The notes under the pieces were generated by a model that worked only from the letters and a program-made list of their open reading frames with translations, made no database searches and was not told the DNA's origin. Source: Longimicrobiales bacterium (GTDB lineage: Bacteria; Gemmatimonadota; Gemmatimonadetes; Longimicrobiales; Gaopeijiaceae). From it: DNA of 64,000 bases. The stretch is taken from positions 3,318,576 through 3,382,575 of the forward strand of contig OX639991.1 of NCBI GenBank assembly GCA_951828585.1, read 5' to 3'. Positions 1 to 6,644 of this stretch are shown here, one piece after another; the stretch's first letter is position 1, and every line of letters starts with the position of its first letter. The position numbers and the translations under genes are program-made.

Positions 1-257
1 TCGTCGCGCAGCTCCGTCGCGTCGCCATGGTCCCGGCGGCCCTGCCCCGCCAGCAGCAGAAGCGTCCGCGCCAGCCGCCTCTGAGAATGCCGGATCCGGC
101 GCCCGTCCCGCTTGTCCGGCAGCCCCTCCGCCAGAAACCGCACCACCCTGCTGCGCCGCAGCAGCTCGCGCCCCGTCAGAGCCCCCGAATCCCCCGTGAT
201 CCGGTCCCGGCCGGACCCAATCCTGATCGACCTGTTGAAGCTGAACGGCGCATCCAT
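1..257 (-). CDS. IS1380-like transposase, N-terminal part (cut by window edge)
   Basis: The minus strand is open from an ATG at 257 to the left edge (85 complete codons). The translation has the layout of an IS1380-family N-terminus: a segment ITGDSGALTGRELLRR, matching the family's 'LTSDAGALLLRE', then RRIRHSQRRLARTLLLLAGQ and GDATELRDD, matching 'HS..ELLR.R...IA.GYED..DAD.LRHDP'. It is clearly different from the second IS1380 transposase at 727-2103. A GTG three codons upstream (266) is an alternative start. The catalytic part lies outside the window, so intactness cannot be judged. Confidence 0.6.
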   Translation of the reverse strand, partial: MDAPFSFNRSIRIGSGRDRITGDSGALTGRELLRRSRVVRFLAEGLPDKRDGRRIRHSQRRLARTLLLLAGQGRRDHGDATELRD

Positions 258-405
258 TATCTTCACCCCCGACGTGATGGCTGGCAGGTGCTCGCGATCC
301 TTCTAACACTCTGAATCTAAAGCACTTGCCGCCTCACGTCGCCTCGCCTCCCGGCCATTCGTGAATAAGGGGGGGTCAATCGCCCGGGAGCAAAGCGCCC
401 CTCCT

Positions 406-477
406 TCACCAGGTGCTCAGTTTGATCCGCACCACCCTGTTTCGGACTGAAGCACGTCCGGTGGTCACGATCTTGCC
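406..477 (-). pseudogene. C-terminal tail of beta-propeller copy 3, cut off by the IS
   Basis: Immediately outside the left end of the IS1380 element the minus strand reads GKIVTTGRASVRNRVVRIKL then STW and TGA (408-406). This looks like the last strand of a 6-bladed beta-propeller protein. It follows logically from the ...FLGWTGPGG end of the interrupted ORF on the other side of the element (2205). The joined frame is possible if a few target bases are assigned to the element. I read this as the displaced end of one gene. No start codon or SD belongs to it. Confidence 0.55.
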
Positions 478-2204
478 GCTAAGCCGTATTTCTCACACCG
501 GCAAGCAGAGGACCACGGAGGGGGCCGTAAGGCGGGGTTGAAGCCGTCGCGGCGTGGTCAACGGCGTTGAGGTGCGGAAAACAGGGGAGGACAGCCCTGC
601 GACGAGAGAGTTCGTAGCTCCGAACAGGCCAACCGGGGGGCGAAGGACGCTCTGGCGGGTCCCGGGGCGCACGGGTCCCGTGAGGGGTGGGGTGCAGACG
701 GTCGGGAGCGGCGCCTTCCTCGGAGGCTACCCTGGTAATCGCGCGTGGACGCGGGCGAAGGCTGCGGCGGAGGGGTGCGCGGAGTCCATGGCGATCTTGA
801 CGCGGCGCACCGACACCATGACGCGGGCGCCGATCCTGAGAAGCTTCAGCCGGAGCGTTCCGGCGGTGGCCCGGGCCAGCCGGGTGCCGTGAAGCGCTTG
901 CCTGAGGACGGCGAAGAGGACCGCTGCGAAGGCGGAGAAGAGGAGCCGGAGCTGGTTGGCGGCGAAACAGGTGGCCGACGTCCGGTCGGAGAAGAGATCC
1001 AGTTGCTGCTCCTTGATCGCGTTCTCGGCGTTGCCCCGCTGGCAGTACACGCGCTCGTAGACGGTGCGGGCCGAGAAGGTGTCCGCGGGCAGCGAGGTGA
1101 CCACGAAGCGCGGGTTCGCCTTGTCCGCCAGATGCTCGGCCTTCGCGATGACGCGGCGCTCGCACGACCAACTCTTCCGGGTCGCGTACGGGAACTCCGT
1201 GTACCGGCGGGCCGCCCGCCCCTTCCTCTCAGCTTCCGCCGCGGCGTCGTCGAGCACCCATTCGATCCGCTCGGCAAGCCGCGAGTTCCTGGCCAGGCCG
1301 ACGACATAGTCCACGTCGTTGTCCCTGCACCACGCCATCAGCTCCTCGCGGGCGTACGCGGAATCGGCCCGGACCATGACCTTCAGCCATGGCCACTGCC
1401 GCCGGAGCCGGGCGATGACGCGGCCGAGCGGCCCGGTCACCTCTCCGGCGGGATCGGCGTTGCCCGGCCTGAGCTGTGCGAAGAGCGGGCGTCCGGCGCA
1501 GAGGATGTACAGCGGCAGGAGGCAGTAGTGCCCGTAATAGCCGTGGAAGAACCGCCCCTCCTGCCGGCCGTGCACCGGATCGTCGGTCGTGTCGATGTCC
1601 AGCACCAGCCGCTCCGGGGGCAGTCCCTGCCAGGAGTCGATGAACAAGTCGGCCAGCACGTCCTGAAGCTTCTCAGGGTCGTGGCCGATCTTGCGGTAGC
1701 GGTCGGGCCGGCCCCGGGCGGGCGCGTGTTCGAGACGGCTCAGCGTGCTCTTGCCCGCCAGCGGCGCGCAGCCCTTCCGGCGTCCCTCGAGCTTGCCCGA
1801 CAGCAGCGCCAGCAGCGGGTCGCGCCGCAACTCGTCGTGGTCGTTGAGGTCCTCGTATCCCAGCGTGATGCCAGTGATCCGCTGCGCCACCAGCGTCCGC
1901 ACCGAATGCTCCGTGAGACGGGGGTCGCGGTGGTCCGTGAAGCACGCGGCCACCCGGTCGAAGAAGCCGAGCGCCCGGTCGATCTTCCTCAGCAGCAGCG
2001 CTCCGGCGTTCGACGTGATCGATCCGCCGTCGAACGCGGCGGTCACCTTGCGGCCCCGGCACCCTTGAAATGCGAACGAATCCGGTTTACACTGTGTCGG
2101 CATCGGTCCTCCGTGGGGAATCGGTTCAAGTTCAACGCCTATATGAACTTAACATCCCCCGGAGGCCGGTGCCTACTGGTGGGTGTGAGAAATCCGGGCT
2201 AAGC
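478..2204 (-). mobile_element. Complete IS1380-family insertion sequence
   Basis: The element is about 1.73 kb and has one transposase gene (727-2103). Imperfect terminal inverted repeats of about 25 bp lie at 478-503 (GCTAAGCCGTATTTCTCACA...) and, inverted, at about 2179-2204 (GCTTAGCCCGGATTTCTCAC...). The 249 bp between the transposase stop and the left end hold no supported gene. A target duplication could not be fixed with confidence. The insertion splits a minus-strand beta-propeller gene whose two halves remain at 2205-2510 and 406-477. Confidence 0.85.
727..2103 (-). CDS. IS1380 family transposase
   Basis: This 458-residue DDE transposase is full length for IS1380. The N-terminus has the family segment AAFDGGSITSNAGALLLRK (residues 22-40), then ITLGYEDLNDHDELRRDPLL. 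Acidic residues fitting the DDE triad are in VLDIDTTDD (about D169/D171), VRADSAYAREEL (D247) and GNAENAIKE (E360). The start has an SD (GGAGG) seven to eight bases upstream. No frameshift or stop is visible, so the element may still be active. It lies inside matching terminal inverted repeats. Confidence 0.92.
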   Translation of the reverse strand: MPTQCKPDSFAFQGCRGRKVTAAFDGGSITSNAGALLLRKIDRALGFFDRVAACFTDHRDPRLTEHSVRTLVAQRITGITLGYEDLNDHDELRRDPLLALLSGKLEGRRKGCAPLAGKSTLSRLEHAPARGRPDRYRKIGHDPEKLQDVLADLFIDSWQGLPPERLVLDIDTTDDPVHGRQEGRFFHGYYGHYCLLPLYILCAGRPLFAQLRPGNADPAGEVTGPLGRVIARLRRQWPWLKVMVRADSAYAREELMAWCRDNDVDYVVGLARNSRLAERIEWVLDDAAAEAERKGRAARRYTEFPYATRKSWSCERRVIAKAEHLADKANPRFVVTSLPADTFSARTVYERVYCQRGNAENAIKEQQLDLFSDRTSATCFAANQLRLLFSAFAAVLFAVLRQALHGTRLARATAGTLRLKLLRIGARVMVSVRRVKIAMDSAHPSAAAFARVHARLPG

Positions 2205-2510
2205 CCCCCGGGGCCGGTCCAGCCAAGGAAAGTCTCGTTGAACCGTCGGCTGGCGATCACCTGCCCGCGTCGCCAGTCGATCACCTCCACATGGGTGTCG
2301 GTCCTTTCCAGGAAGTTGTCTGGGTGCACTTCCTCCCAGTTGTCGCTTGCCCTGAAGATCATGACCCACATCAGCGAGTCGTCGGCGCTAAGCCCCACGA
2401 GCTGCGGCTCTGGCGGATCCGTGGGCAGCGGATGGCCATCCAGGTCATCGAGGGCGTCGGGGAAGCTCCTCCTGTCGCTCACCGGGCATCTTGCCAATCG
2501 CCATCGCCGT
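2205..2510 (-). pseudogene. 6-bladed beta-propeller protein copy 3, deleted and IS-interrupted
   Basis: The reading frame contains the C-terminal third of a propeller of the type encoded at 3144-4253: PLPTDPPEPQLVGLSADD, LMWVMIFRASDNWEEV, THVEVIDWRRGQVIASRRF. It runs into the right end of the IS1380 element. The front two thirds, signal peptide included, are missing. The fragment begins within the tail of the small Cys-rich gene (2479-3033), about where an intact propeller gene would start. A deletion of several hundred bases therefore fused the two genes out of frame. A TTG at 2497 could start a short peptide, but no function is expected. Confidence 0.7.
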
Positions 2511-3033
2511 CACCCAATGAGGTGTTCGATCTCATGGGAGCGAGCAGCTCCAAGCCGGCCTTTTGATCTGCGGTCAGCTCAACGGAAACCAGCACTTTCT
2601 CCCCACAACCCAAGATTTGAACCGCCTGACGTTTGGGGTGCACGACGACACTCGGGACCGTTTCATGCAACTCTAGCAACGCCGTCACTTTGAGTTCCGG
2701 TATCAGTTCGATGGCAGCGTCAATGTCCTCACCGCTCCCTACCTGCTCCAACCCGCAGGAGCCGTGCCAAGGGTAGCACGCAAGGGCAATGCACTCTGGA
2801 TGCTCACCCATTTCTCGAAACTGATCGTGAGTGCCCTTTCCTGTGTCTTGATAGATCAACTTGTGACCCCTTCTACAGTCCTCCCACTGACACTCGTACT
2901 CACAGTCCTGGACATCAAGCAGGTTAGCGACGGTGGAGGCGTTGGGTTCTCGATCTGCGGTGGCGCCAACCAAAACAACCGAGGTGAGCACGGCGGCGAT
3001 CGCAATGCTCGGTAGTCTGACAGTCTTGTTCAT
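2479..3033 (-). CDS. Small secreted Cys-rich protein, copy 3
   Basis: The 184-residue protein has a signal peptide (residues 1 to about 25, ending near VGATA) and a cysteine cluster CEYECQWEDCRRGHK, then CIALACYPWHGSC. A hydrophobic C-terminal part contains KRQAVQILGCGEKVLVSVEL. It is a clear paralogue of 4250-4750 and more distantly of 5994-6644. Its last residues (after ELLAP) do not match the sisters, which stop here. They come from a deletion that fused the gene to the remnant of its propeller partner, so the natural C-terminus is probably altered. The family is not recognised. Confidence 0.7.
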   Translation of the reverse strand: MNKTVRLPSIAIAAVLTSVVLVGATADREPNASTVANLLDVQDCEYECQWEDCRRGHKLIYQDTGKGTHDQFREMGEHPECIALACYPWHGSCGLEQVGSGEDIDAAIELIPELKVTALLELHETVPSVVVHPKRQAVQILGCGEKVLVSVELTADQKAGLELLAPMRSNTSLGDGDGDWQDAR

Positions 3034-3143
3034 GCGGGTATCCTTGCTAAGGAGGTGAAATGGCCAACCTGAAGGTCGGTTCGTCCCGATTGGTTTCTTT
3101 GAGTCAACCTTAGATTAGACTAGACTAGCATCGCAAACTAGCG

Positions 3144-4253
3144 CTAGCGCCAGTCTGCTCGGTAGATCACGACTTGAGGGACCATCGCATCGTTGAAATG
3201 CGGGACGCTGATTCGCACGCGGTCGCCAGCACCGGCGCCGTAGTCGACCAGCATGACCACCCCGGAGTCCCAGGTGTAGCTACCGAGGTGGCGCTGGGCA
3301 TGTAGATCGAACACGTCGAGACGCGAGTCGGAATACTTGTCGATGTCCTTTTCGTAGAATCCACCCTCCACCCGGGGTACATCCACCCAGCCCTCGTCCG
3401 GCTGGTTGGTCAGCATCCACGCGTGGTCGTCGCCGCCAACGGCGAAGGCGCTCATCTTCGATGCTGGCGGCTTCGATGGATCCGGTATCAGCTCAGTGAT
3501 GGTCTTGAACCATGGGAGTTCGCCTTCGATGGTCCGTAGGTGTTCGCCCTCCGCGGACCACTCTTGAACCCGAGGGCCTCCTGCGTTGGCCCACCAGACT
3601 GTGGAACCGCTCACGACACTGCCGAGAATGAACTCGCCCCAAGGTATTCTGGCCGACCACGAATTGGGGTTTCGCGTTCCGAAGTGAACGGGCGGTGTCC
3701 GCCCATCGTCAGGGCTCACGTCCACCAGATGAAGCGGGTAGCCAACCAGGTCAGAACTCTGGTCCATTGAGAATATGATCACTCGGTTGGTTCCGACGGA
3801 CACGAAGTCGCCAGTCTTGAAGCCGTAGACAATCTCACCAAGATGATCCCCGGCCTCGTTAAAGACGACAAACGCTCTGCGACGGTAGTCGTTGACTAGG
3901 ATTCGGTCGCCAAACACCTGAACACCGTGAACGGATTGGGAGAACTCGCCCGGACCCTCGCCTGACCGGCCAATCGACCGAACAAACCGTCCGTCATGGC
4001 CAAAGAGCTTCACGCTGGGAGCGCCACGGTGGTAGAGGAAATAGCCCATCTCGCTCCATACCACTTGTGGAAAGGCGGATTCAACAATCCCTTCGCCATC
4101 TGAATCGCCCAACCGCACTTCCTCGGTCAGGCGTAGCTGGCAGCCGAGGCAAACTGTGAAATCTTCCCAGCGTGACGTCTCTTGGCCGAAGGCGTTGGAC
4201 ACCACCCCTAAGACCGCTATGGCAGCGAGGGCCGGGCAAGTCGCTCGGGTCAT
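3144..4253 (-). CDS. Secreted 6-bladed beta-propeller protein, copy 2
   Basis: The 369-residue protein has a signal peptide (about 1-23, cleavage near SNAFGQ) and a CxxC (VCLGCQ) soon after it. The propeller repeats include the common motif GRFVRSIGRSGEGPGEF at about 90-106. Its ATG overlaps the stop of the upstream small Cys-rich gene as ATGA, which implies translational coupling. It probably acts outside the cytoplasm as a binding or scaffold protein; no enzymatic residues are recognisable. Relatives of this propeller class are common in Gemmatimonadota and Bacteroidota, but their ligands are unknown to me. Confidence 0.8.
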   Translation of the reverse strand: MTRATCPALAAIAVLGVVSNAFGQETSRWEDFTVCLGCQLRLTEEVRLGDSDGEGIVESAFPQVVWSEMGYFLYHRGAPSVKLFGHDGRFVRSIGRSGEGPGEFSQSVHGVQVFGDRILVNDYRRRAFVVFNEAGDHLGEIVYGFKTGDFVSVGTNRVIIFSMDQSSDLVGYPLHLVDVSPDDGRTPPVHFGTRNPNSWSARIPWGEFILGSVVSGSTVWWANAGGPRVQEWSAEGEHLRTIEGELPWFKTITELIPDPSKPPASKMSAFAVGGDDHAWMLTNQPDEGWVDVPRVEGGFYEKDIDKYSDSRLDVFDLHAQRHLGSYTWDSGVVMLVDYGAGAGDRVRISVPHFNDAMVPQVVIYRADWR

Positions 4254-4750
4254 TGGGCAAGAAACTCCAAATCGGCCCTCTGCTCAGCGGTCAACTCCAC
4301 CGACGCCAAAACCTTATCGCCACAACCCGTCACTTGAACCGCTTGGCGACCGGCATGGACGATGAGCCTCGGCATCGTTTCGTGCAGTTCGAGAAGCGCC
4401 ACCATCGAAAGTGTCGGTATCAGCTCAAGAGCTGTTTCGATGTCCTGCGACGCGAACTGATGACCCTCGCAGTCATGCCATGGGCTACAGCCGTTACCGA
4501 TACATTCCGTCTCCTCGCCGGCAGAAAGGTACTGATCGTGGTAGGCTGACTCCCCGTTTCGAGCATACCAGAGTTTGTGGCCCGTCCTGCAGTCTCCCGA
4601 CTCGCAGCGATACTCGCAGTGCATCGTACCGAGGAGTTCGGCCACTTTGGCCGCAACATCCGGCTCCGGATCGGCGGTAGCGCCTACCAGAATGGCCGTA
4701 GTGAGGAGGGCAGCGTTCGCGATGCTCGCGAATCTGAACATCATCTTCAT
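4250..4750 (-). CDS. Small secreted Cys-rich protein, copy 2
   Basis: The 166-residue protein has a signal peptide (1 to about 26) and an array of cysteines and histidines: CEYRCESGDCRTGHK, then ECIGNGCSPWHDCEGH. A conserved C-terminal segment, RQAVQVTGCGDKVLASVEL, carries one more Cys. An SD (GGAG) precedes the ATG. It overlaps the propeller gene 3144-4253 by four bases. Paired Cys/His could bind metal or form disulfides; this is inference. It is the best-preserved member of the three small proteins in this cluster. No known family is recognised. Confidence 0.75.
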   Translation of the reverse strand: MKMMFRFASIANAALLTTAILVGATADPEPDVAAKVAELLGTMHCEYRCESGDCRTGHKLWYARNGESAYHDQYLSAGEETECIGNGCSPWHDCEGHQFASQDIETALELIPTLSMVALLELHETMPRLIVHAGRQAVQVTGCGDKVLASVELTAEQRADLEFLAQ

Positions 4751-4807
4751 AACTCGTCTCCGTAAGAAAGGGTGTGTGATCCTGCAGCGGTGTACATTCA
4801 GCTCAGT

Positions 4808-6001
4808 CTAATCGGGGGGCGCCCTGCTTCGTGACATCGTTGGACGAAGCAAAGTGATCGATGGCACGCCTGCGTCCGACTCGCGATACAGAATCACATA
4901 GCGGGATCCGCTCGCGAATCCAATGAGTGTCTCGTCTGTGTGGTACCGTGCCACAGTACTTCCTGTTGTTGGATCAACAAGGTCCAGCCAACTGTCAGTC
5001 AACGTATTCGGCGGCGCTACGGGCTGATAGTCCGGACCGAGCTTCTGCGGCGTCCATTCAGGATCCGGTGCACTCCACAAGACCCATAACCCATTGGCAT
5101 CCAACATTGCCGCGCGGTTGTAGGATCGGGGCCACAGCTCTTGGTCGTGTTTGTCGAACTCCGCAGTCGCACGTTGGAACACCTTCGAAACCACCGGATC
5201 CGGAACTAGGTCCCAACGTGTAATTCGATTCGGGTACTTGTGAAGCGCCAGTGCGATCTCCGCATTACCGGTAACGGCTGACAGCCGCTCCGAGGTCCAG
5301 CTGGAATAAAGTCGGTCGTGGCCACCAGCCGACTTCATATCACCAGACGAACTCAGGACATGAAGGGTATGCCCAACCATCGCTTGGGTGGGCACATCGG
5401 CCGCAAACACGACTCGGTTTGCATCGGCGGCAAAACCACCCGTTGTCGTTCCGGGGAATCGGTCAACCCGCACCACGCTGAAATCGTGGTCCAACAAAGT
5501 GCGGCCAAGGTGGTCAAAAACATGGATGTACCCAAATCCGGCGGCTAGGTGGGTGATGAACTGGTATTCTCCCGGACCCTCCCCCCCCCGTCCTACCGTT
5601 CGAATGAAAGCTCCGGTGGAATCAAAGACGGAGAGTTCGGGAAACTGGGGAGCCACTACAACAATACGGCCGCGGCTGTCCACGGCGACTCTAGAGAGGT
5701 GGGTGATCAGATGATGTCCGGGTCCGTCAAGACCCCCGATGACCGCCACAGTGTCGAAGGTCACTACGCAGTAACCACACGATACGTCGCCGGACACGGA
5801 AACGGTATCCTGTGCCCATGCACTGCGCGTGGCGCAAGCAGCAACTGACAGTAGAAACGATGCAGCTATCCATGGGGTGACCCATGCGATCCGGTGGCCA
5901 TACATCCAGGGAAGAAAGGTACCAATCGTCGCGGGAAGGCAGGCCAGATCCCTGTCTTCGTTCATTTTTTCGGCGGCTTCGCCGAAAATGGAATCAATCA
6001 T
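4808..6001 (-). CDS. Secreted 6-bladed beta-propeller protein, copy 1
   Basis: The open frame reaches 6127, but ATG 6001 overlaps the stop of the small Cys/His gene (5994) and gives 397 residues. A later ATG (5905) would start just before a good signal peptide (WVTPWIAASFLLSVAACA ... AWAQ), so the true start is one of these two. After the signal peptide comes CGYC, a CxxC in the same place as in copy 2. Then follow propeller blades with IRTVGRGGEGPGEY and LDANGLWVLWSAPDPEW. It pairs with the upstream small gene as in copy 2. Function unknown. Confidence 0.75.
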   Translation of the reverse strand: MIDSIFGEAAEKMNEDRDLACLPATIGTFLPWMYGHRIAWVTPWIAASFLLSVAACATRSAWAQDTVSVSGDVSCGYCVVTFDTVAVIGGLDGPGHHLITHLSRVAVDSRGRIVVVAPQFPELSVFDSTGAFIRTVGRGGEGPGEYQFITHLAAGFGYIHVFDHLGRTLLDHDFSVVRVDRFPGTTTGGFAADANRVVFAADVPTQAMVGHTLHVLSSSGDMKSAGGHDRLYSSWTSERLSAVTGNAEIALALHKYPNRITRWDLVPDPVVSKVFQRATAEFDKHDQELWPRSYNRAAMLDANGLWVLWSAPDPEWTPQKLGPDYQPVAPPNTLTDSWLDLVDPTTGSTVARYHTDETLIGFASGSRYVILYRESDAGVPSITLLRPTMSRSRAPPD

Positions 6002-6644
6002 TGTTCTCAGCGACGAACTCGGCGAGGGCTGAGAATACACCACCACCCATCGGAATGTGAGCGACAATCGTGTGGTTGTCACAGCCGACGACCTGTATGG
6101 CGGTCCGAGAGCGAACAACGTGGACACGTGGATTGGTCACCAAAACGGCGAGTGTCTCAGTATCGGTTCGAGCTAGGGCGTCAATGATCCCTTCGATCGT
6201 TTCGTTTGCGGCCAAGCCGCCGCCGTCGCAAGGGGTTGCGTGCTGGTCAACGCCGCAATTCCCGGGCAAGGCGCGATGTTGATGCCATCCAGTGGGAGCT
6301 CCCTGTTCATGCCCTGGACCGTAGTCTTTGCGTCCGTCGATTGAGGTGGCGAAGTGGTGGGCGTCCATGTCCCAGCAGTTACCGCAGTTCACTTCGACGT
6401 GGACGTGCTCGCGGGGCTCAGTCAATCCAGGCGTCCGATGATTTGAGACGCGCTTCCCGAGTGAACCAGCAGGCCCGGGATGCACTTCGGTGTATGGTGG
6501 TAGGATCTGCAGATGCTCGTACGCATCGCGTTGGGCAGGATCACAGGGCGACTCGACGGCGGCACTCGGCCGGACCACCTGACAAGTCGGCGGTGTGTGC
6601 GTCGCCGAGAAAACGAGGCTCAGAGTGAGGAAGAGCGGTACCAT
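5994..6644 (-). CDS. Secreted Cys/His-rich protein, copy 1 (first gene of the cluster)
   Basis: The 216-residue protein has a short signal peptide and a His-rich central region: HVHVEVNCGNCWDMDAHH, GPGHEQGAPTGWHQH, CGVDQHATPC. The C-terminal part, SRTAIQVVGCDNHTIVAHI, aligns with the shared tail of copies 2 and 3 (RQAVQVTGC..). It is longer and more diverged than the other two. An SD (AAGGAG) precedes the ATG. Its stop overlaps the propeller start (ATGATTGA). The Cys/His richness suggests metal binding or disulfide bonding outside the cytoplasm; this is inference only. Confidence 0.7.
   Translation of the reverse strand: MVPLFLTLSLVFSATHTPPTCQVVRPSAAVESPCDPAQRDAYEHLQILPPYTEVHPGPAGSLGKRVSNHRTPGLTEPREHVHVEVNCGNCWDMDAHHFATSIDGRKDYGPGHEQGAPTGWHQHRALPGNCGVDQHATPCDGGGLAANETIEGIIDALARTDTETLAVLVTNPRVHVVRSRTAIQVVGCDNHTIVAHIPMGGGVFSALAEFVAENND

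Follow-up and report, generated by a model that had tools for sequence, protein, structure and literature searches.

Some Gemmatimonadota genomes carry well over 150 exported six-bladed propeller genes, and the locus described here raises the question of whether the small Cys/His-rich proteins encoded beside some of these genes are their dedicated partners. The locus lies within a 64,000-nucleotide stretch of the genome of a Longimicrobiales bacterium (contig OX639991.1), and this whole stretch is referred to as the window. A preliminary description of the window, made from its sequence, had proposed a triplicated two-gene module in which a small secreted protein is strictly paired with a beta-propeller.

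Gene content of the array

The array consists of two intact small-gene/propeller pairs and one broken third unit (Table 1). The three small secreted proteins (S1, S2 and S3) were confirmed where they had been placed, and all three have a Cys/His-rich middle and a tail of the form R-x-A-[IV]-Q-[IV]-x-G-C. Both intact propellers score above the cut-off of 22.9 bits for the six-bladed beta-propeller family PF17170 (28.7 and 37.8 bits), and both carry the CxxC that had been noted after the signal peptide, about 10 residues past its predicted end. Of the span that had been proposed for the module, 406-2130 is mostly an IS1380-type element and does not belong to it.

Table 1 Features of the array, with positions in the window
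Feature	Position	Strand	Basis and details
S3, small exported Cys/His-rich protein, 216 aa	5994-6644	-	ORF and family profile match; C87-x2-C90, H97, H121, C130, H135, C139; C-terminal R180-x-A-x-Q184-x2-G-C188
Six-bladed beta-propeller, S3 partner	4808-6001	-	PF17170, E 1.7e-09; CGYC at 5768-5779
S2, small exported Cys/His-rich protein, 166 aa	4250-4750	-	ORF
Six-bladed beta-propeller, S2 partner, 369 aa	3144-4253	-	PF17170, E 9.8e-07; CLGC at 4140-4151
S1, small exported Cys/His-rich protein, 184 aa; own propeller gone	2479-3033	-	ORF
Propeller C-terminal remnant, ~100 aa	2198-2497	-	Sequence match; 3' end cut by IS
IS1380-type element, outside module	484-2197	-	Transposase 727-2103; terminal inverted repeats 484-508/2173-2197

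The overlap between small-gene stop and propeller start that had been described holds for S2, where the two genes share 4 nt (ATGA), but for S3 it depends on taking the first in-frame ATG (about nt 6001) as the propeller start. The best signal peptide of this propeller starts from a methionine at about nt 5905 (MYGHRIAWV..., ending AQD), which is past the S3 stop and leaves no overlap, and this methionine is the probable true start. The triplication also stands only in part. At 57% identity, S1 and S2 represent a duplication, but S3 has only 30-33% identity with either and is better seen as an ancient paralogue standing next to this duplicated pair. The third unit is broken, and the intact propellers, 27% identical to each other, are placed in different deep clades on a quick propeller tree with several long branches.

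A small gene followed by its propeller is present at S2 and S3 but not at S1, which is followed only by the remnant. The best match of this remnant is the propeller at locus L045 (49%, 1.4e-18), with 34% identity to a propeller of the host genome (L147), while the propellers of the window itself reach only 25-30%. Because the remnant matches another lineage and not the partners of S2 and S3, the original propeller of S1 has been lost, and a deletion or recombination seems to have brought S1 up against the end of an unrelated partner's propeller gene.

The IS1380-type element at 484-2197 exists in two identical copies in the genome. A second, different IS1380-type element (1-309) sits side by side with it next to the array; it is a member of a larger family of related copies (transposases 32% identical). 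Elements of this type occur no more than 4.5 kb from three of about nine pair sites in the host genome (L128, L134 and window 1-2200), somewhat above the approximately 0.5 expected by chance on a rough estimate.

Pairing within the host genome

The host genome is a single 4.47 Mb contig with at least 150 propeller matches, and analysis of the regions surrounding these matches yielded 165 propeller ORFs with a length of 230 aa or more, together with 11 small-family ORFs. Many of the six-bladed propeller ORFs in this genome, which number at least 165, form tandem arrays (e.g., L099-L180). By hand-curated assignment, blade 1 opens with two cysteines (CxxC, CxxxC or CxC) in 24 of the 165 propellers. 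A small gene is located directly upstream of 10 of these 24 dicysteine propellers compared to 0 of the 141 others (Fisher 6e-10), and all 11 small genes adjoin a propeller, the eleventh being S1 beside its remnant.

The remaining fourteen dicysteine propellers have no small partner, and no relic of a small gene was detectable beside the eleven that were examined. On the same quick tree, dicysteine propellers without a partner branch within groups of paired ones (L100 by L042 and L059; L125 by L063 and L182), and two more (L104 and L116) group beside the S3 partner. This placement suggests that several of the orphans lost a partner. The unpaired L100 propeller (2923-4029, locus reverse-strand coordinates) has a transposase directly upstream, and its close relatives in other genomes, L042 and L059, do have the small gene.

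Pairing across Gemmatimonadota

Profile searches detected the small family in at least 19 of 249 genomes of the phylum and at least 37 of 394 genomes of the class, counts that are lower bounds as 9-12 candidates were scored per genome, with 0-11 copies of the small gene per genome. A scan of the collection with a narrow alignment returned only two loci, both from Gemmatimonadetes metagenome bins. In approximately 37 Gemmatimonadota genomes, a propeller gene on the same strand borders 63 of 68 distinct small genes, which supports the strict pairing of the preliminary description on the very point that it had offered for refutation. The order seen in the window, with the small gene first, was found for 35 of the 63; in 25 the propeller is first, and 3 small genes are flanked by propellers on both sides. 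As the pairing survives a swapped gene order, it points to function and not to one inherited operon accident. Overlaps of 1-4 nt are frequent in both orders and, with the signal peptides, support the translational coupling and export that had been suggested.

Among the five small genes without a called propeller neighbour, one (L050) is the second small gene of a propeller-small-small tandem, and two (L187 and L192) have a neighbour that, by eye, reads like a divergent propeller. No conserved third gene was found among the neighbours within 4.5 kb of the pairs, where only IS transposases recur, and the unit therefore comprises two genes.

Individual loci vary in their arrangement. The partner propeller at L038 (1914-3058) is frameshifted into two reading frames beside an intact small gene, and two small genes flank a single propeller at L186 (3036-5073, locus reverse-strand coordinates) with 4-nt overlaps on both sides. 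The tandem at L050 spans 1495-2692. At L006, a gene at 309-722 that by eye resembles a PIN-domain toxin lies just upstream of the pair.

Conserved residues and co-divergence

A lack of conserved cysteines would also have refuted the preliminary description, but the cysteines, like the histidines, are conserved across the family. In 68 sequences, aligned to the family profile in a manner that favours agreement, the signature is C-x2-C...H...H...C-x3/4-H-x1/4-C followed by a C-terminal R-x-A-x-Q-x2-G-C, with five cysteines and three histidines nearly invariant. Counted over informative rows and in order, the columns are conserved in 60/60 (C), 57/59 (C), 56/60 (H), 62/63 (H), 63/65 (C), 60/65 (H) and 66/66 (C) sequences, and the C-terminal cysteine in 64/65. 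These proteins of 160-220 aa match no known family in Pfam, NCBIfam, PADLOC or PDB sequences. No open-access paper on NVEALA, DUF5128 or Gemmatimonadota propellers came up, and no description of the pair was found in the papers searched. By its signature of five cysteines and three histidines and its place beside a propeller in genomes independent of one another, the small exported protein with its propeller partner is a candidate new family.

On the propeller side, of the 54 partner propellers curated by eye, about 43 have two cysteines and six a single one; the others are truncated or doubtful partners, and several neighbouring propellers without the dicysteine may be wrongly assigned partners. 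The propeller CxxC is thus common without being strictly required, and can degrade to one cysteine. The divergence of small proteins is correlated with that of their propellers (Mantel r=0.33, 54 pairs, 0/2000 permutations), and the correlation among the paralogues of the host genome alone (r 0.62) indicates that this co-divergence is not just species history.

Predicted structure

Structures were predicted with AF2 from alignments of the window sequences and two Gemmatimonadetes loci. From this shallow alignment, the last ~70 residues of S3 were modelled as an alpha-alpha-beta-beta-beta-alpha fold (pLDDT ~84-92) and the Cys/His region at a pLDDT of ~30. A fold search with the S3 model, most of which is of low confidence, gave no match (best E 0.65). 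The propeller model was poor (mean pLDDT 54.7), and its top fold matches were NHL six-bladed propellers (Brat, Thin and TRIM; E 6e-07); sequence searches also match the NHL domains of TRIM and Thin.

Proposed function and alternative explanations

The explanation that we favour, and to which we assign roughly an even chance of being correct, is that the two proteins are exported and form an obligate complex of two subunits, the smaller of which has a Cys/His module stabilised by metal or disulfides. As read from the signal peptides, both proteins would cross the inner membrane. The NHL-type six-bladed propeller would provide a rigid scaffold and a ligand-binding platform, and the small protein would be an accessory subunit. 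Its N-terminal module of four cysteines and three histidines would most simply bind a single metal ion, or else combine a metal with a disulfide, and its predicted alpha-alpha-beta-beta-beta-alpha domain at the C-terminus would present the conserved R-x-A-x-Q-x2-G-C hairpin. The likeliest contact would be near the first strand of the propeller, the site of the CxxC, and the complex may bind or sense a ligand outside the cytoplasm. Of the metal or disulfide chemistry put forward in the preliminary description, the nearly invariant histidines argue for metal in the small protein, as they favour a bound metal over disulfides alone. Cooperation of the two proteins is supported by the pairing in either gene order, the co-divergence, the tie to dicysteine propellers and the retained cysteines and histidines, and the propeller subset marked by a dicysteine and a dedicated partner offers a first handle on what such proteins do. 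The fourteen unpartnered dicysteine propellers and the six partners with a single cysteine at the CxxC position count against a complex.

A more far-reaching form of this proposal, which we consider unlikely, is a new class of exported two-subunit metalloproteins, in which the subunit with four cysteines and three histidines would dock on the dicysteine first blade so that the two share a metal or redox centre where they meet, with diversification into many paralogous, ligand-specific pairs per genome.

An equally unlikely alternative is that a disulfide between the two proteins, or a couple for thiol-disulfide exchange, links the CxxC of the propeller to the odd fifth cysteine of the small protein, with the histidines being structural. 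The uneven number of conserved cysteines, the two-cysteine motif in most partner propellers and the strong tie of small genes to dicysteine propellers would all fit such a partnership. However, the small protein keeps its cysteines where the propeller has lost one (L044, L047, L051 and L087), many dicysteine propellers have no partner, and the three nearly invariant histidines are left unexplained.

Secreted antagonism, in which the small protein would act as an effector (bacteriocin-like or contact-dependent) and the propeller would serve as its cognate binder or as an immunity protein, would account for the patchy distribution, the tandem variants and the paired divergence, and would suit the variable copy number and the IS elements and decayed unit beside the array. 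We regard it as improbable, since a single cell seems to export both proteins, the Cys/His core shows conservation in place of hypervariability, the PADLOC search returned no match, and the pair was absent from phage and plasmid records.

Much less probable is a cofactor-bearing dehydrogenase in the style of methylamine or quinohemoprotein amine dehydrogenase, enzymes that combine a propeller large subunit with a small Cys-rich subunit. The gross architecture is the same, but the known enzymes use seven-bladed propellers, the 68 small-family sequences have no conserved Trp column and no CxxCH, no maturation genes of the amine-dehydrogenase type are conserved within 4.5 kb of the pairs, and neither sequence nor fold searches gave a match. 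The missing tryptophan and maturation genes largely refute this reading.

Finally, chance adjacency, which the high density of 165 propellers in 4.47 Mb might seem to favour, is ruled out for practical purposes by the 11/11 pairing in the host genome, where the intact partners are exclusively dicysteine propellers, and the 63/68 pairing overall, as chance alone would place well under 10% of genes next to a propeller (a rough figure from 165 propellers with two neighbours each among ~4000 genes).

Comparison with known systems

The two-subunit complex that we favour resembles several known systems in part. NVEALA proteins (PF14055) of Bacteroidota presumably neighbour six-bladed propeller lipoproteins, and the likeness would be that of a small exported Cys-containing protein beside a six-bladed propeller gene. 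The PF14055 model has only 62 positions, however, and the present small proteins are far longer with a different Cys/His signature; membership was rejected, with no PF14055 match in the host genome or among 26 small-family members. Amine dehydrogenases share the plan of an exported propeller with a small Cys-rich subunit, whereas the present pair has six blades in place of seven and is without their conserved Trp, haem motif and maturation genes. Both the amine dehydrogenases and the NVEALA-propeller neighbours are best taken as analogies only. AztD-type periplasmic zinc metallochaperones are also exported propellers and are tied to metal handling, but the present pair has no further conserved genes nearby, and the small-protein model gave only trivial 28-residue fold matches (E >5). 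A further relation is with PF17170 (DUF5128) and NHL propellers, as both window propellers match PF17170 and NHL six-bladed propellers come up in searches by fold and by sequence alike. PF17170 is defined without a partner protein, whereas here a subset of such propellers stands out by the dicysteine in blade 1 (24/165) and, for 10 of these, by the small neighbour.
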